Source: Phycisphaerales bacterium (GTDB lineage: Bacteria; Planctomycetota; Phycisphaerae; Phycisphaerales; UBA1924). Taken from it: a stretch of 64,000 nt of DNA. Below, piece after piece: positions 16,843-56,742 of the stretch; positions within the stretch are counted from its first letter, which is position 1; each line of letters opens with the position of its first letter. The stretch lies in contig JAVJVK010000001.1 in NCBI GenBank assembly GCA_040221175.1, forward strand, positions 372,001 through 436,000, in the 5' to 3' direction. The position numbers and the translations under genes are program-made. The notes beneath the pieces were generated by a model. It saw only the letters and a list, made by a program, of their open reading frames with translations, ran no database searches and was not told where the DNA came from.

Positions 16843-19800
16843 TTACTCCCCATCATCGGCGTCATCATGCGGTTCTTCAACGGTGACCATCTCGAACCAA
16901 TCGGCTCCGGAGCCCGCGGAGAGATCGAAGCGGGTGACCTGCCGGACAGCGTTCGAGTTCACAGGGTTGGCCAGGATTGCGACCTCAAAGCGATCGGTGT
17001 TCTCGGGGTCTCGGAAGACGCGGTAGAGGAAGTAGCGCGTTGATTCCGTCTCGGCATTTGTGAATTCATTCTCTGTGAGCTCGACTTCTCCACTGCGGCT
17101 GCTGCGGCCCTTGACCTCGATAAACCTGGCGATGTCAGAGCTGCTGACCTCCCTGTGCTCACGAGCCCGCTCGTAGGCCGAAGCGGAAGTGAGGCCGATG
17201 ATGTCGCATCCGAATCCATCAGCGCCGTGAAGGTGGCTGACTCGAACGGGGAACCTACCCTCGAGCTTCTCGTATTCCTCTACTACCCTGAACGTCACAT
17301 CCTCAGTGGCGAGTGGTCCGCGACGTCTCGTCCGCGTGCCACCGGCGCCCGTGGTGATCACAAGTCGCCGACGAGCGCCCGGCTTGCGTTTGGGCGCATC
17401 GACTGGCTTGAATTCAACATCATCGTCAGGTCCGTCACCGCTGTCGTCACCATTGGTGTCGGTCTCATCCGACGGCTCGTCTTCAGCGTCGTCATTGCAC
17501 GGATCATCGTCGTCGCGTGGCGATGGGTCGCGGGGCTCGGGCATCGGTTGAGGTGGTGCGACATCATCCTCGATCTCGGTCTCAAACCGCTCTCGGGCCT
17601 GGAGTAGTTTCGCATCGGCGTCTTCGTCGACGAGGCCGCGGACGACGTCCTCCATCTCGGCGGCTGTTCTACATCGGAGAACATTCGCCACCTCGGCCGC
17701 GACATCGGTCCCCAACAGCTCCGCCACGAGATTCGCGACGCTCTGCCAGAAGCGGACGAGGGACGCCGCTTCGCGGTCGTAGTCGTCCACGATGTAAAGG
17801 GTTCGGTCCAAGAGCAGTCTGTCGCCCTGGCCGGTGAGCTCGATCATCTGAGTCTCACCGTTCGGGAGTGTGGCCTCGGCACGGATGCACGTGCACAGAC
17901 GTAGTTCAGCCTGATGCAGGAGATTGCGTTCGCGGTTGTCCTCGTCGATCTTCTTCCCGAGTCGTATGGCATAGATGAACGGCAGCGCTCGCCGGAATGC
18001 GAGATTGGCGTCTTCGCTGGATGGAGCATACTCCGTGCCCTCGTGTTCCAGTTCGATCTGGATGTCGCGCGCGGCGAGAGGCTCGATGCCAAAGAGGTCG
18101 CGTACGAGCTTCGTGGACTTCCGCCTCGGCAGCTCAGCGATTTTGATGTGCTGCTCGATGACGCCGGGGACAGTGACATTTGCGTTGTAGCGGACATCCG
18201 AGACCGGCAGGTACTCGACAGCACCTTGGAACCGCGACCACACACGGCCGGTCTGCTGGAAACGCCGCTTCGCGAGACTGTCGTCCGTGCCAACGTTCGC
18301 CTCCACGAGCGTCCTGTAGATACCGGGTGCGTGCTTACCCTCTGGGTCATCGTGCGGGAGTCGTTCGAGGAGTTCGTAGAGCGAGTCTGTGTCGATGGCT
18401 TCGAGCGAAGAGATCGCTCCGAGGCGCGTCAGCAGACCGTTGACCGCCCTCCGCCCGCCACTGCGCTGGATGGCTGGGTCTTCCACGTGGATCGCGTGAC
18501 GGAAGTAGAGGCCTCGCAGTAGGCGGCTGCCCGCTCCGCTGAGGATGATCTGGCCGGGTGTGCAGCGGTTACCCTCCTCGGTCGGCACCCACGGGGTTGA
18601 ACGCAGGGCGAGCATCACGGGATTCGGGACGCGAACTGATTGATCGGCCCACAGCTTCTGCTCCCGAGCTTTGCGTGCGACGAAACAACCGTGCTCGTCG
18701 GTGTCGCTTGCCAGATAGGACTGGCCCTCCGAGAGCAGGAAAGCCACGAGCGCGGTCGGGTCCGCCTCCTCCAGTATCTCCTCGAAGTGTTCTGGAAGTG
18801 TGGAGTCATCGATACCAATGTCCTTGCACAACCTGAGCGCCGCAGCCGCGTCCTCGCATTCCTCCTCCCTGACAATCGTGGGATACTCGAGTTCCTCCAG
18901 CGCCCTTCGGGCAAGTTTGGAGCTCTGTTTGTAGTTCAGAGGAACGCTCTTGGGCTTGTCATTCACACCGAGCAACACGAGGAATCGAGCGGTGCGACTC
19001 GCATCCTCCTCGCTAAGTCCAAGCTGCTCGGGTGAGGCGACAAACTGCACCCCGTCGATGCGGGAGTAGATTCGATGGAGAAGGTCGCCGCCTGGGTAGT
19101 CAGGCCCGAGGTAGCACTCCTCGGGGCTGCAAACGTCACCGCCCGCTGTCAGCACCGGAACGGTGACTCCTGTTAGCTGGCCTGGCTCACCTCGCGTGGT
19201 CTTGAAGAGCCACTGCAGGAGCTCGGCTGTTCGCTGACTCTTGGTGGGTTGCTCGGCTCGTCGGGCGCGCGAAGCCAAGGCGCGAACGACTGTGTCGAGG
19301 CGGTATTCGTCGACCCGCGCGCCACGAGCCTCCAGCCGTCCGGCCAACGCCCGGACGCTCGACCCCGTGGCGCTTGATTGAAGTCCACGCTGGAACTCGG
19401 TGTGGACGAACTGGATATCACGCGCCCAATCCGGCACCGGGAAGGTCTCGGCACCTGGCGATAGGAAGCACTGCTGCTCAGGTTCCAGGAACGAATCGGA
19501 CGACGTCAGGATGAACGATCCGAGTGGAAACTTGCCTAGGCGTTCGGTCGCCAGCAACTTGCCAACGAGTTGGCCCGCAGCTTCGGGGGCCATCTCTTCG
19601 AGCTGGGTCCTGAGGCGGCGAACGAGCGCATCCTGTTCGAACCAGCCAATGTTGAACAGACCAAGAACGCCGGTGAGTCGTTCGTCGCTCCTGACATCGA
19701 GCACGGACGAGAAGTGCTCGGGATTCAAGAGCGGATGCCACGAATCGTGTGGAGTGCGGTGAGCACCTTCAGCCGGCCCGAGGCTCCCGTCAATCCGCGG

Positions 19801-21099
19801 GAAGATGTAGCGATCCTTTAATGCGGAGACCGCCTGGTCCACGAATCCGAGCCTCAGGAGTTCCGGGTCCGCGTCGTCAAGACCGTCGAGCAGCCGAAGA
19901 GCGCGCTTGGGGTGCTCATTGTCAGCCTCATCCGTCACAACATCCGCGAGGTGCGCTGCAAGGGACTGGAGCACGTGCCGGTTGTCGTCTGTGTTGTGAA
20001 CTCGGTTACGGTCGTCGCTTAGCTCCAGCGTGGCATGGAGCACAACCGGCAATGGCAACGCATCTTGTGTGGGGAAGAACACGCAGAGACATCGGTCTGG
20101 TGAAGCTGTGGGCTCGTCGGGTACCGCGATCGCGGTTTCGAAGTCCCGTTGCTTGCGAGTGCGGCTCTGCTCGGGTGGGGTAATACGACCTTCACGACGA
20201 TAGAGGGTCCACAGGGAGTCTCCCTCTGGACTCTGAATGATGAGCCGTGTGGTGTGATCGTCCACGACCTCCCGGAGAATCTCCCAGCGCCGAACCTCTG
20301 TGCCATGAAGTTCGATCTCGTTCAGCGAGCGGCAAAACAGGAGTGCCTCGGTGGGGATCGTGTCGAGTTGCCGGAGCACGTCCTCATATACCTGCTCCCG
20401 TCGCTCGTCCTCGGGCATCCGGAGAACAACCACGGTGTCGAAGCCCTGGTCCCGATACTCCAATGCCAACTGGAGGTCCCGCTTCGCTGGAACGTACGGG
20501 AACCGCATGATGGGGACAGGGAGGTGTCCTTCGGCATCGGAAAATTCAGCGAGTCGGGCGCCAATCCGTTCCGAGTCCTTTCCGAGTGCCTCAACGACAC
20601 TGTTGGCCTGTGCGCGGTCGAAACCAACGGCAAGGTGACCACTAGAGATGAGCGGGCATTCGGACCAGGTGAGCACGGACCGGAAACCGAGTCCCTTGCA
20701 ACCGATGTACCTATTGCGGTCGAGCTGCTTGGGACTGCAATCACTTATGACCAATGACTCAAGACCACCGAGCGAGAATGCCGTGCCCGAGTTGGCGACG
20801 ACGATAGAGTCGTCCCGGATACAAACCATCAATCGCGCTGGATCCGATCCCGCCGACGCATCGTCGGCGTTCTGAAGAAGCTCAAGGAGCTGCCGGCCCC
20901 GATATCCCTCAATCGCGGCTGTCTCTCTGTTGGCGTGACTAATCAGCTCCTTGGGTTGACGGCGGTACAGCTCCAACTGGTCTGCAGCGAGGTGTTCGAC
21001 CGCCGCGGCAGCCTCTGCGTTATCACCGAACCCACGACCAGACAACGAGGAGAGCCCTCGCTGTCGGGGTTGCTCAATGCTGTGAGTGGCATCGCTCAT
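16843..21099 (-). CDS. Sacsin-like GHKL ATPase with C-terminal DUF3883 domain
   Basis: A 1418-residue protein. The N-terminus has a GHKL/Hsp90-type ATP site as in sacsin: GRQLLELLQNADDAS (about 68-82, N-box with catalytic Glu and Asn), VANSGTAFSLGGLESL (about 101-116) and YIGCKGLGFRSVLTW (about 131-145). The middle 1000 residues show no motif I recognise. An acidic linker with runs such as DPCNDDAEDEPSDETD precedes the C-terminal DUF3883/NO VEIN-type domain, which has FIEVKGRSS and VELTENEFTNAE followed by YFLYRVFR, reminiscent of PD-(D/E)XK nuclease folds. Similar giant proteins are found in bacterial defence islands. The Met at 21099 was chosen because upstream codons read as low-complexity Arg/Pro. 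No strong ribosome-binding site is visible. Confidence 0.7.
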   Translation of the reverse strand: MSDATHSIEQPRQRGLSSLSGRGFGDNAEAAAAVEHLAADQLELYRRQPKELISHANRETAAIEGYRGRQLLELLQNADDASAGSDPARLMVCIRDDSIVVANSGTAFSLGGLESLVISDCSPKQLDRNRYIGCKGLGFRSVLTWSECPLISSGHLAVGFDRAQANSVVEALGKDSERIGARLAEFSDAEGHLPVPIMRFPYVPAKRDLQLALEYRDQGFDTVVVLRMPEDERREQVYEDVLRQLDTIPTEALLFCRSLNEIELHGTEVRRWEILREVVDDHTTRLIIQSPEGDSLWTLYRREGRITPPEQSRTRKQRDFETAIAVPDEPTASPDRCLCVFFPTQDALPLPVVLHATLELSDDRNRVHNTDDNRHVLQSLAAHLADVVTDEADNEHPKRALRLLDGLDDADPELLRLGFVDQAVSALKDRYIFPRIDGSLGPAEGAHRTPHDSWHPLLNPEHFSSVLDVRSDERLTGVLGLFNIGWFEQDALVRRLRTQLEEMAPEAAGQLVGKLLATERLGKFPLGSFILTSSDSFLEPEQQCFLSPGAETFPVPDWARDIQFVHTEFQRGLQSSATGSSVRALAGRLEARGARVDEYRLDTVVRALASRARRAEQPTKSQRTAELLQWLFKTTRGEPGQLTGVTVPVLTAGGDVCSPEECYLGPDYPGGDLLHRIYSRIDGVQFVASPEQLGLSEEDASRTARFLVLLGVNDKPKSVPLNYKQSSKLARRALEELEYPTIVREEECEDAAAALRLCKDIGIDDSTLPEHFEEILEEADPTALVAFLLSEGQSYLASDTDEHGCFVARKAREQKLWADQSVRVPNPVMLALRSTPWVPTEEGNRCTPGQIILSGAGSRLLRGLYFRHAIHVEDPAIQRSGGRRAVNGLLTRLGAISSLEAIDTDSLYELLERLPHDDPEGKHAPGIYRTLVEANVGTDDSLAKRRFQQTGRVWSRFQGAVEYLPVSDVRYNANVTVPGVIEQHIKIAELPRRKSTKLVRDLFGIEPLAARDIQIELEHEGTEYAPSSEDANLAFRRALPFIYAIRLGKKIDEDNRERNLLHQAELRLCTCIRAEATLPNGETQMIELTGQGDRLLLDRTLYIVDDYDREAASLVRFWQSVANLVAELLGTDVAAEVANVLRCRTAAEMEDVVRGLVDEDADAKLLQARERFETEIEDDVAPPQPMPEPRDPSPRDDDDPCNDDAEDEPSDETDTNGDDSGDGPDDDVEFKPVDAPKRKPGARRRLVITTGAGGTRTRRRGPLATEDVTFRVVEEYEKLEGRFPVRVSHLHGADGFGCDIIGLTSASAYERAREHREVSSSDIARFIEVKGRSSRSGEVELTENEFTNAETESTRYFLYRVFRDPENTDRFEVAILANPVNSNAVRQVTRFDLSAGSGADWFEMVTVEEPHDDADDGE

Positions 21100-21753: not shown

Positions 21754-22667
21754 TACGACGCCCTCGCCACACGCGGAGACGGCTGGATGTCTCTCCCGGA
21801 GAGGTACGACTCGAAGTCATACTCCGCGAGTTCATTCCGCCCAAACGCGCAGCAATAGTCCCGGAACGCCTCGCCATGATGGACGCGTCGTTCGACTTCG
21901 ACAGCGAGTCGGAGGAACTGGCGGGCGGCGTTGTGGTGGCGGTGCACCGGATGCGTGAGCAGCGGCCGGCCAATCATCGCGCACTCATGCACGGCTGTTG
22001 CCTGGGAGATGCGTGTGACGAATCGTCGCCCGGGCAGTGAGGCGTCGATCGCCTGCGTAATCTCGCTGCGGGTCCGCGTAGCTCGTTCGTCGACGCAACA
22101 GAGCAGGACACCGAGGATCTCGAGCCCGGGGTTGCGACGCTTGCGTACTTCGGAGATGTCTCGACATGCCTCTGTCAGGCCCAACAGCGAGAGGTGATGC
22201 GGGAGCACCGTGAGCAGGAACCACTCGGCCGAGCCGTAGGCAACGAGCGTGGTCGTGTCGGCAGGGTGCGGGCTGGTGTCGAGCAGGATGAAGTCATACC
22301 GGAGAGCCTGCTCGACGACCGGGCAGAGGAGGCTGGCGGGGTCCGCGAACCGCGCGATCCTCCTGTGAAGCGTGCTGAGGTCGTGGCGGGCCGGGATCAG
22401 GGCGACGCCCGGCGGCATGCCATCGGTGATCGCTGTTGGTTCGAGTTCCGCGTCCCCGCACAGCAGTTCGAGGGCCCCCTCGTATTCGACGCCATCGATG
22501 CCCAGGTGTCGTGTTGCCCCCGCGGCCGGGTCGAGGTCGATGATCAGAACGCGTTGGCCGCGGACGCCCAGGGCGGCCGCAAGATTGATGGCCGTCGTCG
22601 TCTTCCCAACGCCGCCTTTCTGGTTGCCGATCGCGATGACGGTCGGTCGTGTTGTGTACGTGGTCAT
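21753..22667 (-). CDS. parA: ParA-family partition ATPase
   Basis: A 304-residue Walker-type ATPase for plasmid or element segregation. The deviant Walker A is QKGGVGKTTTAINLA (about 16-30, with the signature Lys in KGG), the Walker A' region is RVLIIDLDPAAGATRHLG and the Walker B is DFILLDTSP. Length fits small ParA/Soj proteins without an N-terminal HTH. The Met at 22667 is preferred to the one at 22673 because it lies 6 nt after the GAGGGGG element. It is followed by the coupled small partner and diverges from the replication-initiator-like gene. The C-terminal tail of about 60 residues contains an unusual LAVEVERRVHHGEAFRDYC stretch. Confidence 0.85.
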   Translation of the reverse strand: MTTYTTRPTVIAIGNQKGGVGKTTTAINLAAALGVRGQRVLIIDLDPAAGATRHLGIDGVEYEGALELLCGDAELEPTAITDGMPPGVALIPARHDLSTLHRRIARFADPASLLCPVVEQALRYDFILLDTSPHPADTTTLVAYGSAEWFLLTVLPHHLSLLGLTEACRDISEVRKRRNPGLEILGVLLCCVDERATRTRSEITQAIDASLPGRRFVTRISQATAVHECAMIGRPLLTHPVHRHHNAARQFLRLAVEVERRVHHGEAFRDYCCAFGRNELAEYDFESYLSGRDIQPSPRVARAS

Positions 22668-23020
22668 AAGCATCCCCCTCTGTGTGGCCGGCGTGCGTGC
22701 CGGCGTTCACGACTCCGGATAGCGCAGTCAGCGTCACGACGCAAGAGAAGAATGCACTCCCAGCGGACGCAGGCGTGCGGGCAGGCGGGCGTGCGGGCAA
22801 GCGCGCATGCACGCCGACGCGCTTTGCACCTTGCGCAAGCGAACAAGCATCGATAGCGTGGGAGTTGCTGTTCCGCGATGTTGGGATGGTCGAATGGGTT
22901 GCGCGGAGCGGGCATCGCTGCCCGCCCGGCGCGTGGTGGGCAATGCAAGGCCAGGCTGCCATAGGTGCGGCCGAGCCGTCAATCCCCCGCGTCGATTCCG
23001 CGAGAGACAATGGGGGGAAC
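22668..23020. other. Divergent intergenic region with repeats, candidate origin or centromere
   Basis: A 353-bp gene-free region between divergent parA and the replication-initiator-like gene. It contains a 12-bp direct repeat GGCGTGCGGGCA at 22772-22783 and 22788-22799, and an 8-bp repeat GCCGGCGT at 22687-22694 and 22699-22706. GC-rich alternating purine/pyrimidine runs such as GCGCGCATGCACGC follow at about 22801. This arrangement resembles iterons or a parS region of a plasmid. Both flanking promoters must also lie here. No AT-rich unwinding segment is obvious. Confidence 0.4.
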
Positions 23021-24321: not shown

Positions 24322-24690
24322 ATGGGTGAAGAAGGCATGGACGCCTTGCGCGTGAACTTCGACCGCGTACGGTCAAGCTCGAGTTCCACGCGGCGATGGT
24401 CAGCTCCGAAGCGGCCCGGGGCACGGCCGAGCAGTGGATCAAGAAGGGCAAGAAGGCGGTGAGATGGACGCGGCTACCCTTCTGCCTCTTGGACGACAAC
24501 CAGGTGCGCCTGCAGCGGCTGGCGCTGCCGACGGCGGTGAAGCACTGGTCGCTGACGACGCTGCGCAAGTAGCAGATCAAGATCGGGGCGAAGGTGGTGC
24601 GGGACGCCCATTACGTTACCATCCAATTCGCGGAGGTGGCGGTGTCACAAACGCTCCATGCGGCCATTTTTGTGCGGGTTTGGCGGTTCG
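24322..24690 (+). pseudogene. Decayed IS1380-family transposase
   Basis: Three blocks match IS1380 transposases in order. The N-terminal LRVNFDR is followed by a frameshift at about 24365 into VKLEFHAAMVSSE. This jumps directly to the C-terminal ARGTAEQWIKKGKKAVRWTR and then DDNQVRLQ. It jumps again to RLALPTAVKHWSLTTLRK, an in-frame TAG at 24571, and IKIGAKVVRDAHYVTIQFAE. The intact enzyme has about 450 residues, so most of the catalytic core is deleted. No terminal inverted repeats were recognised. It forms the left flank of the glycan operon. The recognition rests on remembered IS1380 N- and C-terminal consensus segments. Confidence 0.65.
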
Positions 24691-24950: not shown

Positions 24951-26039
24951 ATGTCGGTTCTACGTAAAGACAAGTGCGTGACGTCGCTTCGGGGCCCATT
25001 GGAGCGGGTGATCGTCGCTGAGATTGCGAACAATCACCTCGGCTGCTTACGCGAAGCAGAGCGTCTCATCGATGCGGTTGCCGGGGTGTCCACTCGTACA
25101 AGCACTCCAGTTGCAGTCAAGTTTCAGCTGCGTGATCTCAACGTGCTCCTCCACAGGACATTGCAGTCCGCCCATTCTCAGCGGTACGTCCGCAAGATTC
25201 GCAGCCGCTCTCTCCCACTGGACGTCTATGGCGATCTGTCGAAGCGTGCACGTGACCATGGCCTGATTGTTGCGGCCACGGTTTTTGATGAGAGTGCTAT
25301 CGACGCGGCAGTCAACTTTGGCATTTCGATTCTCAAGCTTGCGAGCGCCGACCTTTGCGATTACCACTTGGCGACACACCTAGCTACCACACGCAGCAAT
25401 ATCGTGTTATCGACTGGAGGGGCGAGGTGGACCGATATACAGGCCGCCGTAGCACTGCTTTCTGAGTCGGCTCGCACATTGACCATCAACCACTGCGTGT
25501 CGCTCTATCCGACGCCTATCGATGCGCTTCGCCTTGGGAACATCTCGGCGCTTCGCTCGCACTTCCCACACGCCACAATCGGCTTCTCGACTCATCAACC
25601 CGACTTGGCGATCGCCAGCACCGTTCGACGCGCGTGTTGCCTCGGCGCGATGACGCTTGAACGTCACATCGCACCGACACGCTTCGGTTTCGCGCCATAC
25701 AACTCGGATCCTGATCAGTTTGCGCGCTGGAGCGAGGTCTTTCGCGATGCTGTGGGGCACACCTACGACGCTCCGCAGGTCCGCTTCGCCGGGCCTACAG
25801 AAGCTGAAGCCCAATACCTGGCACCCACTCGCCGTGGACTCTATGCGAAGAAGTCGCTTCCGCCGGGTTGCCGACTAACCGTGCACAACACCTATTCGGC
25901 CATCCCATGGTTGCCTAACTGCCTGAGTGCTGCCTGCCTCAGATTGCCTCTCGTCATAACCAACCACGTAGATGCACATGGTCCTGTCTCACGTGCCTCG
26001 GTAGGCTCCGACCTCTGCGAAGAACAGGCTGTCAGATGA
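24951..26039 (+). CDS. neuB-like: NeuB-family synthase (N-acetylneuraminate/nonulosonate synthase-like)
   Basis: A 362-residue aldolase-type enzyme. NeuB family members condense PEP with an N-acylated hexose to make sialic, legionaminic or pseudaminic acid. Visible motifs are AEIANNHLG (23-31), VKFQ (56-59), LKLASADL (128-135), STGGA (154-158), HCVSLYPTP (181-189) and GFSTHQ (211-216). The family GYSDHT is altered to GFSTHQ and EKHFT to ERHIA, so the substrate may differ. A C-terminal SAF-type (antifreeze-like) domain begins near RRGLYAKKSLPPGCRL. The start may be the ATG at 24951 or the GTG at 24977. The gene is first in a coupled operon. No neuA or neuC is present, so precursor and CMP activation must come from elsewhere. 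Confidence 0.75.
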   Translation: MSVLRKDKCVTSLRGPLERVIVAEIANNHLGCLREAERLIDAVAGVSTRTSTPVAVKFQLRDLNVLLHRTLQSAHSQRYVRKIRSRSLPLDVYGDLSKRARDHGLIVAATVFDESAIDAAVNFGISILKLASADLCDYHLATHLATTRSNIVLSTGGARWTDIQAAVALLSESARTLTINHCVSLYPTPIDALRLGNISALRSHFPHATIGFSTHQPDLAIASTVRRACCLGAMTLERHIAPTRFGFAPYNSDPDQFARWSEVFRDAVGHTYDAPQVRFAGPTEAEAQYLAPTRRGLYAKKSLPPGCRLTVHNTYSAIPWLPNCLSAACLRLPLVITNHVDAHGPVSRASVGSDLCEEQAVR

Positions 26040-26866
26040 CCGGGCTCACAGTCATCATTCCAGTCATGGATCGCCCTACTGTTGGCGAAACCGTTGCATC
26101 CGTAGCGCGTGCAGCGCCAGATGCGGCGATTCTGATCGCTGACGGCGGCACTCAATGCGCTCGCACACTCGCGTGTATACGCGACGCCGTGTCTCGATAC
26201 CCACGCGTCAAGCATGAGGTGATACCCCAGCAGCCCTTCAACAAGGCACGGCTACTCAACGCTGTAGTTTCACATGCCGGTGGCAGGCAACTGCTCTTCT
26301 CGGACGCAGACATCGTCTGGGCGTCTGACGCCGTTACCTCGCTGTACAGCGCAGCAACGTCTGCTGGCTGCGATCTGGTGTTCGTGGAGCACGTAACTGA
26401 GACACAGGCCGCAGCAGGCTGCCGCACGATTTTCGTAGCCACCGCGACCCAGACTTGCGAAGGGTTCGAGGTCTCGCTTCACTCCCAGGCAGTCGGCCAC
26501 ACGAGACCAGGCTTTGGTCTGGTGCTGGTTGGCCGAGACGTGTTCTACTCAGTCGGCGGGTTTCGAGAGGATCTGGTCGGGTACGGGTTCGAGGATCAGG
26601 ATCTTCTGCTCCGCGCTTCGTTGCTCGGCTACTCCGTCTCCTCAACGGCAGGATGCCAACACATCACCCACGCTGACACGGAACGTGGCGATCCACTCCT
26701 TCTCCGCAAGCAGCGCAACGCCAATGTGCTCAGATCGCTGTCGGCGCTAGCGCGTGGGGCGCTGCATGGCGCCCTGGCGACTAACGCTTCCCCCGTTTCG
26801 CATTGCACGCGCGTCCAGATCTGCCCAGAGTTTATGAACGAGTTGCTAGAATCCGGAGTTGGGTGA
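26036..26866 (+). CDS. Glycosyltransferase, GT2-like with GT7-type C-terminal domain
   Basis: A 276-residue cytoplasmic or membrane-associated sugar transferase. The GT-A fold starts with LTVIIPVMDRPTVGETV, and the metal-binding DXD is FSDADIV (Asp90-Asp92). A GT7-type segment GYGFEDQDLLLR follows, the acceptor and catalytic region seen in chondroitin-synthase-like enzymes. Its ATG overlaps the NeuB-like stop by 4 bp, so the two are co-translated. A probable role is adding a hexosamine or uronate to a surface glycan. The donor and acceptor cannot be read from sequence. Confidence 0.8.
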   Translation: MTGLTVIIPVMDRPTVGETVASVARAAPDAAILIADGGTQCARTLACIRDAVSRYPRVKHEVIPQQPFNKARLLNAVVSHAGGRQLLFSDADIVWASDAVTSLYSAATSAGCDLVFVEHVTETQAAAGCRTIFVATATQTCEGFEVSLHSQAVGHTRPGFGLVLVGRDVFYSVGGFREDLVGYGFEDQDLLLRASLLGYSVSSTAGCQHITHADTERGDPLLLRKQRNANVLRSLSALARGALHGALATNASPVSHCTRVQICPEFMNELLESGVG

Positions 26867-27649
26867 ATGTCAGCTCACACTAGGACGCATGCTGTATCGC
26901 TCCTCGTGGCCTATCGGGATCGTCCCGACCATCTGCACACTTTGATTAGTCGCTTGGCTCTCGACGAGAGCATTCTCGCTGGAACACATGAGCTGGTCCT
27001 AGTAGAGGGCAGCCACGCTCCGACCGCCCAGTGGGTGGAAGAGCTGCCATGGGCGCAATACAAGTTCGTCCCTCATACTGGGCCCTTCGCACTGGCACGG
27101 CTACGCAACCAGGCGGCGTCGCTAGCTCGAGGTTCGTTCGTGGTTCCGTTTGATGTAGATCTCCTGCCAACAGACGGCGTCCTTGCACGACATTACGCTA
27201 TCGCAGCGACTTCGCCGAACATTCTGGCGGGAGGATACCGCTTGCAGTTGCCAGACGATTTCTCCGCCAGCGCAGACGACTCGCTGGACCCCACCGCGCT
27301 TGGGCTGCACGCGTCCGCCCTGTGCGCCGAAGACAGCCAGAGCGCGCTCTTCAAGTACCTAGCACATGGCGAGCGCTTCGGCGTGTGCGTCCATATGCCG
27401 AGAGACCTGTTCCTTGCGGTCAATGGGTATGACGAGGCGTTTGTGGGATGGGGAGCAGAAGACGCAGACTTACTCGAACGACTGTGCATCGAGGACGGCA
27501 GGACTTTGGCACGTTGCTACGACCTGCTCTACATGCATCAGGACCACTCACTTGCCGACGATTGGAACGACCAGTCACTGACTACTGCCAACCGTGAACG
27601 CTACTATGCGAAACGGCGGGCGCGTATGCACACGGACCGGCCGCAATGA
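26867..27649 (+). CDS. Glycosyltransferase, GT2/GT7-like
   Basis: A 260-residue enzyme related in layout to the preceding one. It has VSLLVAYRDRPDHL near the N-terminus, a DVD metal-binding motif in VVPFDVDLLP (Asp96-Asp98) and a GT7-type GWGAEDADLLERL. RLRNQAASLARGS fits the nucleotide-sugar side of such folds. It begins at the nucleotide after the previous stop (TGA then ATG) and overlaps the next gene by 4 bp. Because the two GT7-type enzymes are adjacent but only distantly similar, they may add two different sugars of a repeat unit. Confidence 0.75.
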   Translation: MSAHTRTHAVSLLVAYRDRPDHLHTLISRLALDESILAGTHELVLVEGSHAPTAQWVEELPWAQYKFVPHTGPFALARLRNQAASLARGSFVVPFDVDLLPTDGVLARHYAIAATSPNILAGGYRLQLPDDFSASADDSLDPTALGLHASALCAEDSQSALFKYLAHGERFGVCVHMPRDLFLAVNGYDEAFVGWGAEDADLLERLCIEDGRTLARCYDLLYMHQDHSLADDWNDQSLTTANRERYYAKRRARMHTDRPQ

Positions 27650-28425
27650 CCCGCATCACCATCGTTGTTGCGGTTCGTAATGCCGAACGGGCTATCGCTC
27701 GTTGCATTCAGTCTATTCTGCAACAAGAAGGCGTTTCGTGGCGATGCGTCATCCGCGACGATGCCTCCACGGATCTGACTGAGCAGGCGATTCGTCGCGC
27801 GGTAAAATCAGACAGGCGCTTTGTCGTCAGCACTGCTGATCGGCGCGAATGGCCAGCAACTACACGATGGCGGGCCCTAGAGATCGCGAGTGCACTCCAA
27901 GGCGCATGTTCCAGCGACATCGTCGTGCTTCTAGACGGTGATGACTACCTCGCTGGCCCTGATAGCCTGGTTAGCATCAGAGACTTTCAGGACTCACATC
28001 AGCTGCTTGCGAGCCACGGCACATTCTGCGACGGGGACGGCACGACGTGCACTTGGTCGCGCGACTACACAGCCAGCACCAAGGCTCATGGCACTTTTCG
28101 CCAAGCCGAGTGGGTCGCCACTCATACCCGCGCCTTTCGACTGGGCCTCTACGAACATCTTGACGAGCGGGTCTACACCTACGCCGGCAGGCCGATTCGT
28201 GCGGCTACTGACTTCGCTCTCTTCGTGGCAGTTCTCGAATTGGCAGGGCGCCGCTCGATGCACTGCCCGACCGTGACCTACGTGTATGACGACAGGGGTG
28301 GGCGGGCTATGGCCGCACGTCGCCGTCAAGTGCAACAAGCCTGGAAAGAGCGCCTGGCACTTACACCCTCGTTCTCGTCGCTATCTGATGCGATCTGTGC
28401 CGCAATCCTGCTTGGACACACCTAG
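27646..28425 (+). CDS. Family 2 glycosyltransferase
   Basis: A 259-residue classical GT2 enzyme. It has ITIVVAVRNAERAIARCI at the N-terminus, VIRDDASTDLTEQAI as the nucleotide-binding loop, and a DXD in VVLLDGDDYLAG (Asp97-Asp100). No membrane helices are visible, so it probably works in the cytoplasm on a lipid-linked or protein-linked acceptor. The start overlaps the previous gene by 4 bp (ATGA), and the following gene starts directly after its TAG. Confidence 0.8.
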   Translation: MTRITIVVAVRNAERAIARCIQSILQQEGVSWRCVIRDDASTDLTEQAIRRAVKSDRRFVVSTADRREWPATTRWRALEIASALQGACSSDIVVLLDGDDYLAGPDSLVSIRDFQDSHQLLASHGTFCDGDGTTCTWSRDYTASTKAHGTFRQAEWVATHTRAFRLGLYEHLDERVYTYAGRPIRAATDFALFVAVLELAGRRSMHCPTVTYVYDDRGGRAMAARRRQVQQAWKERLALTPSFSSLSDAICAAILLGHT

Positions 28426-29295
28426 ATGATAACTTTCATAACCACACCCCCACACGCCTACACGCATTCGCTGTTTGTCGAGCATTTTGGCGATCGTGTT
28501 AACCAGCCGGTTCATGTAGCAGCCGGGATTCCCAAGCAGATTACTGACCTAAGCCAGAGCACCGTAATCTGGTGTGACCTAGAGCGATATCGTGATGATG
28601 CGGTTGGCGAACTTGAGGCCGCCCAGGCGAGCGTTGGCGCCGGCATCGCTCGGCGAAGTCTCAATGCCGCAGGGCGAGCGGGCCGGAGGCACGAGGTGGC
28701 CGCAACACTGTTTGCGTCCGGTGTCAACTCCCACCGTACCCTATCGACTCGCGAGTTTGAGGATCTGGCTGCAGACAACGCGGTGCGGTACCCGGTGTTC
28801 ATTCGTCGCATGTTTGAACACGATGGCGCGCAGTCCGGCTTGCTGACATCGTATGCCGAGGTACAGCACGCCTTGGAGTCTCTTGCGCTCGCTCAGGACG
28901 ATATTGCCGTTGTCGAGTTTGAGGATACTCGGTGCTCCGATGGTTGGTTTCGAAAATATGGGGCGTTCTATGTGGCGGGTGAGGTCATACCCAGACACTT
29001 GTTCGTTAGCCGATGCTGGCTGAACAAGGGGGCGGATGCTGATCAGCGATTCAGTGCGGAAGAACTGGAGTATGTGAATGGCAATGCCCACAGTCGCGCA
29101 ATCGCTTCTGTCTTCCAAACGTGTGGACTCGAGTACGGCCGAATCGACTATGCCACTAAAGACGACAAGCTCGTCGTATTTGAGATCAACACGAACCCGA
29201 CGGTTATCGATATCGGCGATATGAATAACCGAGCACGACTTGAGGCGACCAACGCCTTCGTGCGACGTTTTGCCATGTCACTGGATGCACTGTGA
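28426..29295 (+). CDS. ATP-grasp domain protein
   Basis: A 289-residue protein whose C-terminal half has the metal- and ATP-binding signature of the ATP-grasp fold: YGRIDYATKDDKLVVFEINT (about 237-256, with Glu253 and Asn255), then NPTVIDIGD. ATP-grasp enzymes join a carboxylate to an amine or thiol through an acyl-phosphate. A long insertion near DGWFRKYGAFYVAGEVIPR may bind the substrate. The N-terminal 90 residues are unfamiliar. It is directly adjacent to the GT2 gene and followed 6 bp later by a second ATP-grasp gene. In a glycan operon such enzymes could attach an amino acid or similar group to a sugar acid; this is inferred. Confidence 0.7.
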   Translation: MITFITTPPHAYTHSLFVEHFGDRVNQPVHVAAGIPKQITDLSQSTVIWCDLERYRDDAVGELEAAQASVGAGIARRSLNAAGRAGRRHEVAATLFASGVNSHRTLSTREFEDLAADNAVRYPVFIRRMFEHDGAQSGLLTSYAEVQHALESLALAQDDIAVVEFEDTRCSDGWFRKYGAFYVAGEVIPRHLFVSRCWLNKGADADQRFSAEELEYVNGNAHSRAIASVFQTCGLEYGRIDYATKDDKLVVFEINTNPTVIDIGDMNNRARLEATNAFVRRFAMSLDAL

Positions 29296-29301
29296 GTAAC
29301 T

Positions 29302-30186
29302 GTGGAAGCAGATAGGGTCACAATCGCCGTAGTCGATCAGTCTGCCCACGACCTGGCAGATACCTACGACTGCATACAAGCCGCTTGCAAGCGATCTGCA
29401 ATCGATCTGGTCATCTGGACTGAGCCGACATCTGCAACTGTCGACGCAATTGTCGCAATGGACCCGGTTCCACTCGCGGCGATCGCACAAGGAGTCGTTG
29501 TCCTGGGCCGCAGGACGATGAATAGGGCTGAACGGCTCATGGCTGCTGCGGAATCGGGCGTACGGACTGCTCGCTGGCAGTGCGCCGTGGATGTGGCTAG
29601 CAGCAACCACGGCGACAGATCCCTTTGCGTCCTCAAGTACGATTGGTCTTTCGGACGCCGCGGTGTGTCGCTTGTCGATTTCACAGACGACTGGCAGTCG
29701 ACCGTTGGCAACGGTGATGTCTTAATGGAGCGTCTTGCTGAAGACTCGCGAACGTTCAAGCTCGATTTGTTGTGCGGATCGACTGTAGGGTCTTGGGGCC
29801 TGAACACCCGACCGCTTGAAGACGTCGCATTTCGCGATCCGACGGGCGAGCCGTTCTTGTGGCATTGTCCAGATACCGTGAAGGCGGCTGCAGAGCGTCT
29901 CTCGCGAATGCTAATAGACCGCGGTGTCGGATACATGAGCGTTGACTATATGCGGACGCGCGGCGGGTATCGTGCGATCGAACTCAATACATGTAGCGCG
30001 GGGCGAATGATTCCTTGGTCACGGTGGGGAGCAGACTACGTAATGGGGTGCTACAGAGGTCTTCAGCGTCTTGCTCAACGACTGCGCACCTCATCGCCAG
30101 TCACTGTCTCGGTTCTTACAGCGGTGGAACGAGCAAGCCACGAAGAGTTGTCCGCAGCCGAGCCCGATGAGGATCGTGACCCGTGA
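29302..30186 (+). CDS. Second ATP-grasp domain protein
   Basis: A 294-residue protein beginning at a GTG 6 nt after the previous stop. The C-terminal signature YMSVDYMRTRGGYRAIELNT (about 210-229, with Glu227 and Asn229) is typical of the ATP-grasp core; earlier, VLKYDWSFGRRGVSLVDF (about 109-126) fits the lysine-containing ATP-binding region. It is not closely similar to its neighbour outside these elements, so this is not a recent duplication. Two ATP-grasp enzymes side by side suggest two successive ligations, or recognition of two acceptors. The last 25 residues are acidic. It overlaps a small ORF by 4 bp. Confidence 0.65.
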   Translation: MEADRVTIAVVDQSAHDLADTYDCIQAACKRSAIDLVIWTEPTSATVDAIVAMDPVPLAAIAQGVVVLGRRTMNRAERLMAAAESGVRTARWQCAVDVASSNHGDRSLCVLKYDWSFGRRGVSLVDFTDDWQSTVGNGDVLMERLAEDSRTFKLDLLCGSTVGSWGLNTRPLEDVAFRDPTGEPFLWHCPDTVKAAAERLSRMLIDRGVGYMSVDYMRTRGGYRAIELNTCSAGRMIPWSRWGADYVMGCYRGLQRLAQRLRTSSPVTVSVLTAVERASHEELSAAEPDEDRDP

Positions 30187-30392
30187 TAACTAAACGGTCG
30201 TTCAACCTACTGGCACCGCGATCCGATTCTTCTCGCTGTTGTCACCGCGGAACTCCGTCCCGCAACGCGTTGTTATCCCACTATCTCTTGCAAGCCGTGC
30301 ACTGGGCGGACTTGTCAGCTACTGAACGTCGTACTGTGCGCGCCGAATCGGTGCGTCTCAATCCCCAAGAGTCCCCATGGCTTTTCACCTAG
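30183..30392 (+). CDS. Small coupled ORF, 69 residues, unknown
   Basis: The start is a GTG that overlaps the ATP-grasp stop by 4 bp (GTGA), which argues for translation. The sequence has a basic, Ser/Cys-containing first third (SRCCHRGTPSRNALLS) and an amphipathic middle, and ends in NPQESPWLFT. No family is recognised. It may be a small accessory or substrate protein, or the surviving start of a longer gene cut by the insertion-sequence remnant that begins 144 bp later. I cannot decide which. Confidence 0.4.
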   Translation: MITKRSFNLLAPRSDSSRCCHRGTPSRNALLSHYLLQAVHWADLSATERRTVRAESVRLNPQESPWLFT

Positions 30393-30535: not shown

Positions 30536-30692
30536 ATGAATAGGTCTAGGGTCACGGAGGAGCAGATCGTGTTCGCGTTGCCGCAGGCTGAGGGCGGGAC
30601 GGCCTCGCGTGAAAGCTCCTGAACGATGGCGATCAGCGAGCAGACGCTCTGCCGGTGAAAACGAGTTCGCAGGGATGGGTGTTCCTGGCCTT
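30536..30692 (+). pseudogene. IS3-family orfA remnant
   Basis: An ATG at 30536 opens MNRSRVTEEQIVFALPQAEG, the usual beginning of IS3-family OrfA (RxTEEQIxxALRQAE). A stop follows at 30620, then AISEQTLCR in another frame, and KNEFAGMGVPGL in a third; these match the ISEQTFYRWKxxYAGMG stretch of OrfA. The helix-turn-helix protein is thus broken by at least two frameshifts or deletions and orfB is absent. It forms the right flank of the glycan operon. The surrounding 30,393-30,747 has no other recognisable content. Confidence 0.7.
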
Positions 30693-30747: not shown

Positions 30748-31356
30748 TCAAGGTGCCTCTGGAGACTTCATTTCCTCCCACTGTTCCATTGTGAATATAT
30801 AGCCATCGCTGTTGATCGCCCAGCTAACGGTCTCTTCGTTCTTGTCCAGTGGGTCGTAAAACGAGGTCTTCACGATGACATGTCCGAGTTCTCGCAATGC
30901 CCTTCCGAAGTCGTCACGAATGGATCCCGCGTCATGCTCCGACCCGAAGAACAAAAAAGTGCGTGTATCGCCGTAGATTAGGTTGCTTCGGGTTCTCTGT
31001 TCATTGATGTGGTTCAATCGTTCCCCCCATGGCAATGACTGGTCGCTCGAAGCATCTGGACTCGCCGGCGCCCACGTCTGAACTCTCAAGTTCTCGATCG
31101 AAGTCTGGCCAAGGTTGATGAATCCCAATGACCAACGATGTCTTTCATTATCTCCTCCCTTGTCAAGGACTCCTCGGGACAGTCTCCCGCTGACAGGGGC
31201 GAGTCTTGGCTGGAGCAACTGCATGCTCGCTTCGCGAGCGGATTGCGCCTTGTGCTCTGCGCTGGAAGCCATCCACAGGCTGAGCGACGAAACAATTACG
31301 GCCACGACAGCGCAAGAAGCACCGACCCAATCTGTGATGCTGACCTTCTTTGTCAT
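30748..31356 (-). CDS. Membrane-anchored hypothetical protein
   Basis: A 202-residue protein with one N-terminal membrane helix (ASCAVVAVIVSSLSLWMASS, about 13-32) after a short cytoplasmic lead. The rest should be extracytoplasmic or cytoplasmic, depending on topology, and contains a beta-rich segment (RHRWSLGFINLGQTSIENLR). No family is recognised. It is flanked by the IS3 remnant and a 188-bp spacer, with no obvious operon partner. The codon and base composition by eye is more AT-rich than its right-hand neighbour. Confidence 0.6.
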   Translation of the reverse strand: MTKKVSITDWVGASCAVVAVIVSSLSLWMASSAEHKAQSAREASMQLLQPRLAPVSGRLSRGVLDKGGDNERHRWSLGFINLGQTSIENLRVQTWAPASPDASSDQSLPWGERLNHINEQRTRSNLIYGDTRTFLFFGSEHDAGSIRDDFGRALRELGHVIVKTSFYDPLDKNEETVSWAINSDGYIFTMEQWEEMKSPEAP

Positions 31357-31544: not shown

Positions 31545-32765
31545 TCACGGAAGTATTGGCTCCGGCAGGGGCTTGCCTTCTTGTAGCCAGCGAGCTGCGT
31601 CCTGCGCCACCGCTGGAGTGGCTCGCACATCCCCCTGAGCAATCGCCTGCATCCGTTCGATCGAGGTCGTGTACTTCTCTTGGTTCTCAGCGCTGAGCAT
31701 GAATGTACAGAAGAGGTTGTGCAGAGAGATGCCGAACGCGGCTTGGGCCTGGTTGTCGAATACCTTGTAGGCTTCGTCGATGTGGAAGGCGTCAGTTCTT
31801 TTCGTGTACCCGGTACGCTCAGCAATGCGCGGTTCAACAAGAGATTCACGGAAGAACGTATAGTCATCGAAGGCACGGCCACAGACGGACTCAAATGTGT
31901 CGTTCCTATACGTGAGGAATCCGAGGATCTTCGCGGCCATCGGGTCAGAGGCGATCGCCGCCCGGCGTTGCAGCGCTTCCTCTGCTTTCTGAAGATTGGC
32001 AAATCGTTCCTGCTCACCGCGGTGCCTGATCTCGGCGATCCGGTCCGCGTGCTCCTGAGCTCGCCTGCCACCGACTTCGTCCATCGCAGATTGAAGCGTT
32101 CCGGCGGACGGGGAGAGTCCCGAGGCGCGCTGTGTGATCGAGCGCATCGCCCGGAGTTGGTCGGTCAGTCGAGTTCGCCCGGTGTCGGCAAGCATCATCA
32201 ACTCGTCGACGGCCTCGATCAGTGAATCTGGAGCATGCACGCTCGACGCCGCGGACCGCATCTCGTCGAGAGGCTGTGCGAGGGCATCAACCCGATTGCG
32301 CAGTTGCTCGACACTGATACGAACATCTGATGGGCGCAGGGCATCGTGCAGGGCAAGGAAGTCCTGGGTCAGCGATTCATCGGCCGCGATCTTTCTGCCG
32401 TCTTCGTTCTCCAACAGTTCGGCTCGGAGCATCGCCCATTCATCTACTGCGCCCTCGAACTCGGCAACGAGCGACTCAAGCCCCTTGATCTTCCCCTCCG
32501 CTTCGGCGATCGATTCCGCGGCCAGAGCGCGCGCCTCGGCATGGGCGGCGGCGAGCGTGGCGGACTCGCGGTCCGCCGGCGAAGGCATCGACCCGCCCAT
32601 GTCGCTGGCCGGTATGGAGCCGCCTGCGGCGTCTCCCCGTCCCACACCAAAGGGCCGAGAGAGTGCGAACAGAAGCACCACGGCCACGACCAGCCCGCCA
32701 GCGATCAGGAGTCGGTAGTCGAGCCCGCGGAGCGGTCTTGCGTGTTCAACGGATTCATCGCCCAT
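31545..32765 (-). CDS. Membrane-anchored coiled-coil protein, unknown
   Basis: A 406-residue protein with a single membrane helix near residues 18-37 (LLIAGGLVVAVVLLFALSRP). A long helical region of roughly 200 residues follows, including AHAEARALAAESIAEAEGK and EQLRNRVDALAQPLDEMRS, which should form a coiled coil. The C-terminal third is more globular (LTYRNDTFESVCGRAFDDYT). It may be a periplasmic or cell-envelope protein. No catalytic motif is seen and no homologue family is recognised. Confidence 0.6.
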   Translation of the reverse strand: MGDESVEHARPLRGLDYRLLIAGGLVVAVVLLFALSRPFGVGRGDAAGGSIPASDMGGSMPSPADRESATLAAAHAEARALAAESIAEAEGKIKGLESLVAEFEGAVDEWAMLRAELLENEDGRKIAADESLTQDFLALHDALRPSDVRISVEQLRNRVDALAQPLDEMRSAASSVHAPDSLIEAVDELMMLADTGRTRLTDQLRAMRSITQRASGLSPSAGTLQSAMDEVGGRRAQEHADRIAEIRHRGEQERFANLQKAEEALQRRAAIASDPMAAKILGFLTYRNDTFESVCGRAFDDYTFFRESLVEPRIAERTGYTKRTDAFHIDEAYKVFDNQAQAAFGISLHNLFCTFMLSAENQEKYTTSIERMQAIAQGDVRATPAVAQDAARWLQEGKPLPEPILP

Positions 32766-33463: not shown

Positions 33464-36400
33464 TCAAGGCTTCTTCTTGTTGCGCTTCTTGCCCGACTTC
33501 TTCTTCGTCGTCTTCTTGGTTGTCGCCTGTTTTTGCTGCTGACGCTTGCGCTCTGCAAGAGCTTCCGCAATGCGAGTATTGGACTTGAGCTCGTTCGAGA
33601 CCCCCGGATCGTCTCCATCGATGAATGGCGAACGGGCCCGTTTCGCCAAATCGTCCGGCGAGGGTGCCACGATCGTTTCCGGCCGATTGCGTGGCCACGG
33701 CTTCGCTTTCCAGCGGTCGAAGCGACGCTTCGACACGTGGTAATCCGTCCGCATGAGGATCGGATAGCCAGAGAACTGTGTGAGGCCGCTTCCACGGGTG
33801 ACGTGGAGCACGCACATGTCCGGGTCATCGGTCATTGAGATGATCTCGTCGTAGCCGATCTGCCCGGCGAGCACGGTCTGAGGGGGCACCTCGCTCAGTG
33901 GTCCGCGGTCGAAGTCCAGTTCCTCGATGGCGTACCCAACCTCCGCCTCATGGAGAAAGACTTCGCCACCTGAACGTTGAATGAGGTCTTGCTGGCCAAT
34001 GTCGCTCGCCGCAAAGTACTGACGCACCCGTGTGTTGGCTTGGACGGTGGCGGTCACGTCTATACCGCCGCTCTTGAGGTCGCTGATGGACTGATTCGAC
34101 AGGATGCATGAGATGTTCTTGCTGCGGGCCTGCCGGAGGACGAGTTCGAGGTTGCTCGCGATGATCTGCTGAAACTCGTCGATCACCACGTAGACACGGT
34201 GTCCGGGCCCGCGGGTCCGTTCGAGTGCATCGGCGGCAGTGAGCAGGGAGAAGAGGGCGAGCTTCGCGAGTTCGCGAACGGTTGAGGTTTCCAGGGTCGA
34301 CGAGAAATAGAAGTATCCGACCTGCGGGTCGGTCAGGAACGCGGTCATGTCGATGGCGTTGTCCACCGCGGTCTGACTGACGCGGCCCTTGGCGACGTCC
34401 TTCTGCGTGACGTTGATAGCATCGATTCTCGCGAGGCTCTCGATGACCGCGAACACATCGGTGGCGTCGCGTTTCTCGTCCGCGGTAAACCCGGTCTGCC
34501 CAGTCTGCAAGACTTGCTCAAGTTCACGGAACGATTCAAGTTCGCCAGTGCCGCCGCTCGCGTGCACCTGCATCGCGCGTTGCAGAACGCGCCGATTCAT
34601 ACGCGAGTAATGGGAGGGCCCGTACGCCTCGCCGTACTCGAGGCCGAGGCTCTGGAGAAGCACTTCAGCGAACTGGTGGGTCGAGAGTCCCTTGACGTGG
34701 CTTTGGAGGAACGGATTGAAGACGTACGTCGGCTGCCCGGTCACCGAGGTGAACCAGCGGAACGGAACGCCCGCCGCTCTCGCATCGACGCGGGTGCTGT
34801 TGAAGAAGTATGGCTCTCCCTTGAGGTCGATGACAATGACCGAGTGACCGGGATATGAGCCGGTTGCTGGGGCTGTGGCGATGAGTTGCGAGACGAGGGG
34901 CGCGAGACCACGCGATGTCTTGCCGGACCCGGTGTCGCCGAGGATATGCGCGTGTTCGTCGAGAGCTTGCCGGTGGAGCAGGATGGGGTGGTCGCCATAC
35001 TTGCTGGTGCCGAGCCAAAGGTGGTCGCGGACGATCGGGCTTGGTGAAGACTGAAGCCGTCTCGCGTATTCCCTCCACTCGGGCTCATCACTCGGCCGCG
35101 ACCGACTCGCGTTTGGGCCCTCAAACGTCTGTTCAAAGGTGCAGATTGGCTCGCCCGCAACGGCGTAGACGACGAGAAACAGTACTGCCAATGGGACGGT
35201 GATCGAGAGGATGAAAGACACGAGCAGCGACCAGATGAACACGGGTTCGAGCGTGGTCAATCCGACCACGGCGAGCACGAGCCAGGTCTCGGGCGTCCTC
35301 GTAACGTAGTTGGCAACGAGGTATGCGTCACGCGCATCTTGTTCGCCGCCACGGAAGTCGTCGAGATACGCGTTGCGAGCGGTTTCGCTTGGCAGTGCGT
35401 TGAGGTACGCGAGCTGAGCATCGCTGAGCGAGTCACGAACACGGGCTCTGCTTGGTCGCGTGTCCGCGGGCGTGTCCTGGACACGTTCTGGTAGCGATAC
35501 CACCCAATCGACCCTCTGTGCCGCTTCGCTCCACGGCCCCGGTCCCGCCGTCATGATCCCGATGGGGAAGTAGAGTGACATGGCGGGGATAGAGAACGTC
35601 AAGACGGCGAGCACGAGGAAGAGTGTGTTGAACCTCCGTCCAACGGGCCCGGCCGGGCTGCGGAAGACGCCCGGGGCCTGGTCGCGAGACGGGATCGCTG
35701 TCAGGTAACTGGCGATTGCCCGCATAACGGCGCGTGGGTTGCAGCGTCGAGGGTCTGGCGATGCGAGGGCAAGCAGGCCACAGAAGGTGAGGATGGCGAG
35801 TGTCCCGCTCAGGACGTGGCCGGACAGACCAATGGGGATGAGCCTCATCGCCGCGATCGCGGCGAAGTAGGCAATCGCAACGAAGCCAAGCCGAATGAGG
35901 TATCGATGCCGGAGCCCGCCGAGCTCGGTCGGGTCTGACCCGCTTTGCCATCGCGTCCGCCATATCCAGAGCCATCGCTGCCGACGCTCATCGGGGACGC
36001 GCGGACTGGCCGCTGTCCACGCGAGGTAGTGGTTGGCCACCGCGTCCGCAAGGTAGACGGCAGCGCAGACCGCGACCAGGAAAGGCATGCCCGCCGCGAG
36101 CAGTGGCGTGTCGAGAAGCGTGGAGAACACGATGAGCAGCCACGCCAGGGGGCCGAGTGCGGCGGTTAGCAAGAACCGTGCGACCGGCTGCGGGCCGAGT
36201 TCGCGGAGTTCCGTCGGGAACGCCGCTCGTTTCATGGCGACGCCGACGGAGATGAGCGTAAAGACCCCGAGCGCGAAGGATGACGCTGTCCAGGGGCTCA
36301 GCAGCCGAGCTGCGAACGTGACGGCCAGGACGACGAAGGGAACGGCGAGGAACTTGGTCGTCAGCAGGGAGCGGACGAGGTAGTCGGGGCTGTCCTCAGA

Positions 36401-56628: not shown

Positions 56629-56703
56629 GGTGGCTGTAGCTCAGTTGGTTAGAGCACCAGGTTGTGGTCCTGGGGGTCGCGGGTTCGAATCCCGTCAGTC
56701 ACC
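56629..56703 (+). tRNA. tRNA-His (anticodon GTG)
   Basis: A complete cloverleaf. The acceptor is GTGGCTG/CAGTCAC with the expected extra G-1 opposite C73, the D-arm GCTC/GAGC, the anticodon stem CCAGG/CCTGG with loop TTGTGGT, and the T-arm GCGGG-TTCGAAT-CCCGT. The CCA end is not encoded. G-1 and C73 are the HisRS identity elements. Confidence 0.97.
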
Positions 56704-56742
56704 CTTTCCCGTCCAGATCCTTGCCAGACTCGGTGGGGCGTC

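Follow-up and report, generated by a model that had tools for sequence, protein, structure and literature searches.

Which product would be made by a gene run that joins a NeuB-type synthase to three glycosyltransferases and to one, or possibly two, ATP-grasp proteins? The question is raised by positions 24951 to 30392 of a 64,000-nt stretch (the window) on contig C1 of a 3.44-Mb Planctomycetota genome, where six long open reading frames (ORFs) and one 69-codon ORF, all co-directional on the forward strand, follow one another. As a working explanation, held at a little below an even chance, the run is regarded as a horizontally moved glycan-decoration cassette that would make a sugar acid and link an amine. 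This reading draws on the packing of the ORFs, on the active-site residues that the NeuB-type protein retains without Arg314, and on the ligase-like fold of the first ATP-grasp protein (AG1) with its invariant D241, E253 and N255. It also draws on AG1 relatives in exopolysaccharide loci and NeuB relatives in glycan loci, on the flagellins, PseF-like protein and KdsB of the host, and on published precedents.

A packed gene run between two transposase remnants

The gene run and its two borders are composed as follows.

24375..24569, + strand, remnant of an IS1380-family transposase (stretch tested; tblastn, 65 residues)
24951..26039, + strand, NeuB-type synthase of 362 amino acids, ANNH/STH (3G8R-type) subfamily (Pfam NeuB, E 5e-36)
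26036..26866, + strand, glycosyltransferase 1, GT2 type, DAD motif by eye (PF00535, E 1.6e-11; PF02709, E 1.5e-6)
26867..27649, + strand, glycosyltransferase 2, Glyco_transf_7C type, DVD motif by eye (PF02709, E 6.5e-10)
27646..28425, + strand, glycosyltransferase 3, GT2 type, DGDD motif by eye (PF00535, E 4.5e-14)
28426..29295, + strand, AG1, ATP-grasp protein whose family has no Pfam model (structure model, fold search and conserved residues)
29302..30186, + strand, AG2, possible ATP-grasp protein with a GTG start (motifs by eye)
30183..30392, + strand, 69-codon ORF, a doubtful gene overlapping the end of AG2 (no family match)
30536..30661, + strand, IS3-family transposase remnant containing two internal stops (stretch tested; tblastn, 42 residues)

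The gene run between the two transposase remnants is real. Its six successive junctions measure -4, 0, -4, 0, +6 and -4 bases, and these overlaps and abutments make translational coupling across the ORFs plausible. The closely packed operon of the preliminary description, made from the letters of this DNA, was thus borne out, as were its two transposase scars. The upstream remnant matched 162 plasmid records by tblastn, with the best match (E 4e-9) at an unannotated place and the next ones (E 8e-7) annotated as IS1380 family or IS1247, and the best tblastn match of the downstream remnant (E 8e-6) is annotated as an IS3 family transposase. All three glycosyltransferases previously proposed exceed at least one Pfam cut-off of the GT2 type and belong to that type.

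The 69-codon ORF, which explains why the run had been drawn to position 30392, gave no Pfam or NCBIfam match and looks non-coding from its base composition (G+C at the first, second and third codon positions, GC1 to GC3, of 56.5, 55.1 and 58.0%). The GC3 values of the seven ORFs (58.0-65.6%) lie below those of eight neighbours in the surrounding island (68.8-79.1%) and of three genes at 48-55 kb (86.9-90.8%), so that the gene run looks foreign even inside the island.

The NeuB-type protein and its subfamily

The first protein of the run belongs to the NeuB family (PF03102, 124.8 bits against a cut-off of 22.1). It scored below the cut-offs of the equivalog models for N-acetylneuraminate synthase, TIGR03569 (114.1 against 399.65 bits), and for pseudaminate synthase, TIGR03586 (104 against 340.25 bits). 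Its closest solved structure is 3g8r (E 3.5e-40, query residues 20-327), named Probable spore coat polysaccharide biosynthesis protein E, followed by SpsE (1vli, E 3.9e-17) and meningococcal NeuB (2wqp, E 1.8e-16). The preliminary description had taken the motifs GFSTHQ and ERHIA, which are present as written, as signs of another substrate. In the alignment 3g8r has STHE and EKH, and meningococcal NeuB has ERHF; GFSTH is therefore a mark of a subfamily and ERH is ordinary. The argument from motifs held in part only, and better evidence for its conclusion comes from the loss of Arg314 described below.

The window protein and 3g8r both carry STH, and both lack the KRPG arginine in the SAF segment. 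Eight of the 12 other aligned proteins combine STH with A-x-P where ordinary NeuB has RP, and ANNH occurs in seven of these eight, the eighth ending at a contig edge. In a wider set, 21 members reached at least 484 bits with a subfamily profile to which the window protein and seven of these 21 themselves contribute, against at most 149 bits for 13 other NeuB proteins. When only the window protein was left out of the profile, its score was still 226 bits, and that of the 13 others no higher than 137. A search by fixed pattern detected STHE in 20 of the 21, and in the tree the window protein groups with the 21 at a support of 100/100. These comparisons place the window NeuB in the ANNH/STH (3G8R-type) subfamily, which is widespread. 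It is at most 33% identical to any protein in the tree. Two further traits set the subfamily apart from the window protein and its run, namely a cupin part spanned by 11 of 12 matches and a thiamine pyrophosphate (TPP) enzyme adjoining the NeuB gene in 7 of 13 loci.

The window NeuB retains the equivalents of Glu25, Gln55, Thr110, Phe112, Lys129, Tyr186, Ser213, His215 and Glu234 and of the second metal histidine, which we take to be His236. The list of active-site residues follows the available text of PMC6795526. Metal ligands and most active-site residues being kept, the loss of catalytic residues that had been named as a possible refutation was not found. The KRPG arginine is Arg314 in the 2wqp chain, while 4ipi and 4ipj have Ala and Lys there. 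In the meningococcal enzyme it helps to place the N-acetyl group of N-acetylmannosamine (ManNAc), and the R314A mutant is inactive according to the accessible part of that paper (PMC6795526). At this position the window protein has SAIP, with Ile318, and the subfamily has FAMP, MAIP, FAFP and similar sequences. The arginine equivalent is retained in the four ordinary NeuB proteins compared, and in the nine others it was not seen by pattern or fell outside the match. Since the Arg314 equivalent is lost in the subfamily, a substrate other than ManNAc is likely, and the window NeuB, like the rest of its subfamily, is probably a working phosphoenolpyruvate (PEP)-condensing synthase acting on such a substrate. 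A standard pathway to sialic or pseudaminic acid was considered and rejected, because Arg314 is absent and the equivalog scores are low.

The glycan loci in which members of the subfamily sit also encode TPP enzymes, cytidylyltransferases and methyltransferases (57 of 82 listed neighbouring ORFs scanned, NeuB genes and doubtful frames being omitted). A cupin C-terminal domain resembling D-lyxose isomerase was observed on the ANNH/STH proteins at L120:9162-10685, L123:8470-10002 and L167:9137-10654. An early pattern-based scan of genome contigs with NeuB confirmed no relative, its patterns being probably over-specific.

The absence of NeuA and NeuC stood for the cluster, and related functions were found on other contigs of the host. 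These are a PseF-like cytidylyltransferase (70.1 bits against a cut-off of 205.7), KdsB, an Epimerase_2 protein and a second NeuB of the ordinary type, whose equivalog scores (267.8 bits for TIGR03569 and 189 bits for TIGR03586) are also below the cut-offs. The ordinary NeuB (L020:8558-9622) and the PseF-like gene (L105:1363-2115) lie about 84 kb apart on contig C19.

The ATP-grasp proteins and their association with NeuB

AG1 had only a Dala_Dala_lig_C match in Pfam (E 0.072), and no Pfam family was found at E 0.01 for AG1 or five tested relatives. Models of the R2K (CDC123-like) clade, an ATP-grasp clade described in the available text of PMC4431377, gave no match to AG1 at E<=1 nor to the five relatives at E<=0.1. 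A structure model built from 45 sequences reached a predicted local distance difference test (pLDDT) score of 92.3. In the fold search, the first nine matches listed were all to the amide ligases RimK, LysX and ArgX (Z 15.3-17.0, some 250 residues aligned), with RimK at Z 17.0 (root mean square deviation 3.8 over 254 residues) and ArgX at a Foldseek E of 7.5e-12. DcsG, glutathione synthetase and inositol phosphate kinases followed at Z 14.1-14.4 among the matches listed. AG1 thus shares the fold of RimK, LysX and ArgX, but at 12-17% identity, and its family, which has no Pfam model, has conserved residues of its own. Fifteen positions are invariant in 81 AG1-family sequences: D51, N80, R88, P123, F125, R127, W198, G238, R239, D241, E253, N255, T256, N257 and P258. 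On the strength of this model, AG1 is confirmed as an ATP-grasp superfamily protein with a RimK/LysX-like predicted fold.

For AG2, the second ATP-grasp enzyme claimed in the preliminary description, such confirmation was not obtained. Its motifs were recognized by eye: a glycine loop with a lysine ahead of it, MERL, and VDYMRTRGGYRAIELN. This third motif aligns with its AG1 counterpart, although weakly (an hhalign comparison with the AG1 family gave E 0.014 across 35 columns). The only Pfam match was NonGDSL, below its cut-off (residues 5-68, E 6.7e-5), and no ATP-grasp match was found in Pfam, NCBIfam or PDB sequences. A single-sequence model had a pLDDT of 36.3, too poor for use. No AG2 relatives were found in plasmids, phages or viral contigs, and 294 genomes of the phylum returned this genome only. 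At the level of the class (397 genomes), the search returned this genome and, weakly, L131 (E 9.3e-4, residues 15-111); the L131 match, in a 492-codon frame with the look of an ABC-type permease by eye, was rejected as chance. AG2 is a possible to probable candidate ATP-grasp protein.

The AG1 family is spread over genomes of many phyla, with 204 stretches matched by tblastn (E<=1e-3) among 84,980 genomes, the best 80 of which were followed up. Relatives occur in 7 of the 294 phylum genomes including this one, in two plasmids and, by profile, in six viral contigs. None was found in phage records, nor in viral contigs with the single protein as query, and none of the six AG1-bearing viral contigs carries NeuB or AG2. 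Some relatives lie in exopolysaccharide loci, for example on a Paracoccus plasmid. Among 93 neighbours scanned out of 162 listed, there were five flippases (four of them apparently from Paracoccus records), five GNATs and three SnoaL-like proteins, counts that are rough, as long ORFs and doubtful frames, which made up the remainder, were omitted by eye. From these mixed neighbourhoods, the AG1 family looks like one of general-purpose ligases, in exopolysaccharide loci and elsewhere. Two AG1-type matches per locus were seen in 4 of 90 loci (L043, L059, L083 and L099) and in one of the six viral contigs (L136), and in L043 and L099 both copies are adjacent on one strand.

A conserved co-occurrence of ATP-grasp and NeuB genes, the check proposed earlier, failed. 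With profiles for both families, NeuB was found in 0 of 90 AG1 loci and AG2 in none, at least three contigs being counted twice (L012/L033, L013/L027 and L014/L070) and many loci having less than 10 kb on a side. Likewise, AG1 or AG2 was found in none of ten NeuB loci, eight of which are of the subfamily. The subfamily was present in 12 of 398 genomes from the phylum of L045 (Lysobacter chinensis), and these 12 loci together with that of genome G703, the set in which the TPP enzymes were counted, gave 0 of 13 with AG1 or AG2. Among 43 AG1-bearing genomes, 21 match the NeuB profile at 1e-10. Only G703 does so at the subfamily level (692 bits, the next genome having 149), and its NeuB and AG1 genes are on separate contigs (23,191 and 46,835 bases, respectively). 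NeuB matches with one in-frame stop each were noted at L139 and L143, both from AG1-bearing genomes. An ATP-grasp_4 match occurred in 10 of 11 genomes (ten with NeuB relatives and this one), in none of them on the NeuB contig.

Precedents, alternatives and genomic setting

No description of this gene set was found in the literature searched, in agreement with the preliminary description; however, the pairing of NeuB with an ATP-grasp protein is not unprecedented. In Shewanella, sfmABCDE encodes a NeuB-domain protein, a TPP enzyme, a reductase, a methyltransferase and an ATP-grasp protein, and acts in flagellin modification (PMC3765264). Its product is likely a 274-Da nonulosonic acid with a further group of 236-264 Da on flagellin, and in the available text the authors see no clear orthologues of PseH, PseG, PseI and PseF (PMC3765264). 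Like the cassette, the operon of Shewanella oneidensis unites a NeuB domain and an ATP-grasp protein without NeuA or NeuC. Unlike it, the operon includes a TPP enzyme, a reductase and a methyltransferase, and from its published description no glycosyltransferase is among the five genes and the single ATP-grasp protein is of the ATP-grasp_4 type (412 amino acids). The present cluster is not of the Sfm type, having no TPP enzyme, reductase, methyltransferase or ATP-grasp_4 match in Pfam. In the Clostridium difficile type B flagellin glycan, the terminal cap, which is amide-linked and consists of glycine, alanine and taurine, requires the ATP-grasp protein CDR20291_0245 (PMC5207246, PMC5207245). 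That locus resembles the cassette in its three glycosyltransferases and ATP-grasp protein, but the accessible parts of these papers name no NeuB, and the ATP-grasp protein belongs to Pfam 13535, which neither AG1 nor AG2 matches. Through these two precedents the kind is already known, while this combination was not found described. The cassette is best read as one that would work like the Shewanella and C. difficile flagellin systems while being a member of neither.

In the proposed pathway, the NeuB-type enzyme would form a 3-deoxy-ulosonic acid by condensing PEP with an aldose in which the usual 2-N-acetyl group is missing. A cytidylyltransferase encoded elsewhere, for example the PseF-like one, could activate this acid, and the three glycosyltransferases would attach it, together with further sugars, to flagellin or to a carrier on the cell surface. 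AG1, and possibly AG2, would then form an ATP-driven amide bond between an amino acid or amine and the carboxyl group of the sugar acid or a sugar amino group. Linked ATP-grasp ligases often act in turn, according to the available text of PMC4431377.

Several points weigh against this proposal. AG2 is unproven. The ATP-grasp kinases PPIP5K2 and ITPK match the AG1 model at Z 14.1, so that the fold by itself is no proof of a ligase, and some AG1 relatives adjoin genes unrelated to glycans. The window NeuB has Ser for Asn184 and Asp for Glu at residue 134. It sits on a long branch (1.71) in a tree rooted at the midpoint, which makes its exact place unsure. The Pfam scan found no flippase, polymerase or cytidylyltransferase within the cluster. 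A search for promoter-like sites gave none where chance alone would give 1.9, though the promoters of planctomycetes may be different, and glycosyltransferases 1 and 2 had no plasmid match. Finally, the same gene set was found in no other genome among the sets searched, metagenomes not being among them; uniqueness to this genome, earlier named as grounds for refutation, so far holds in these sets.

The main competitor, doubtful but of appreciable weight, is that the run is only a piece of a larger polysaccharide locus, decaying or cut off, which arrived together with insertion sequences and whose proteins may still fold without yielding a product. The IS1380 and IS3 remnants at both ends would fit such a fragment, as would the GC3 of the seven ORFs, lower than in the island neighbours and the 48-55 kb genes, and the lack of transport and activation genes and of a promoter-like site. 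Members of the genus and family examined gave no AG1, AG2 or NeuB match at the thresholds used. This explanation stays close to the preferred one because of the missing relatives, the insertion-sequence scars and the missing transport genes. Decay is nevertheless at odds with six long ORFs that are intact and packed, with the DxD motifs seen by eye in all three glycosyltransferases, and with the conserved residues that NeuB and AG1 retain.

The neighbourhoods of AG1 relatives bring in a small diffusible product, in which the ATP-grasp proteins would join amino acids as they do in natural products of the peptide type, the sugar acid and glycosyltransferases would decorate the product, and the 69-codon ORF might supply a peptide substrate. 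P450, GNAT, SnoaL-like and flavin adenine dinucleotide (FAD) enzymes beside AG1 relatives, together with nonribosomal peptide synthetase (NRPS)-like ORFs by eye, are in line with this idea, as are the paired AG1-type matches and PsnB, a peptide-modifying ATP-grasp protein that matches the AG1 model at Z 13.4. PsnB ranks below RimK, LysX and ArgX, however, the small ORF has neither a family match nor a coding appearance, and NeuB with three glycosyltransferases points to a glycan, which makes a diffusible product unlikely. A role specifically in flagellin glycosylation, of the Shewanella sfm kind, is more improbable still. The host does have four flagellin-domain matches over the cut-off, and the precedent for NeuB with an ATP-grasp protein is flagellar, but the cluster lies on a mobile island of contig C1, the flagellins are on contig C4, and the three accompanying Sfm enzymes are missing from the cluster.

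The cassette reading, which we prefer, has the following surroundings in the window.

491-3994, - strand, DISARM-like DrmA (PADLOC)
4722-5771, - strand, GmrSD/NsnA-like protein amid the DISARM-like genes (PADLOC)
7567-11787, - strand, DISARM-like DrmMI (PADLOC)
11783-14917, - strand, DISARM-like DrmD (PADLOC)
16846-20580, - strand, protein resembling Tiamat TmtA, with NO VEIN as its C-terminal domain (PADLOC)
21756-22673, - strand, ParA, left of the cassette
30748-31356 and 31545-32765, - strand, two proteins whose starts resemble membrane anchors by eye, neither of them matched by Pfam
33467-36538, - strand, VirD4/TraG-type coupling protein, right of the cassette
56630-56704, tRNA-His

ParA and the coupling protein flanking the cassette suggest an integrative or plasmid-like element, for which tRNA-His could be the integration site. 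The two anchor-like proteins are placed between the cassette and the coupling protein. The cassette reads as cargo of a mobile defence island, its tie to defence being one of position. AG1 and AG2 gave no PADLOC match and were for that reason rejected as known defence proteins.

A bolder and rather unlikely extension is that the locus makes glycans of a new class, with an amide-capped ulosonic acid. The NeuB without the arginine would supply an acid that is not N-acetylated, AG1 and the orphan AG2 would attach two amino acids or amines, one after the other, and the whole, travelling with DISARM-like genes, might alter a phage receptor. Beyond this locus, the analysis brings out two groups of enzymes: a NeuB subfamily that is widespread and probably uses a substrate other than ManNAc, and an ATP-grasp family common among genomes of which no tested member fits a Pfam model. 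If the cassette works as proposed, amide-capped ulosonic acids would join the surface chemistry of bacteria, moving alongside defence genes.

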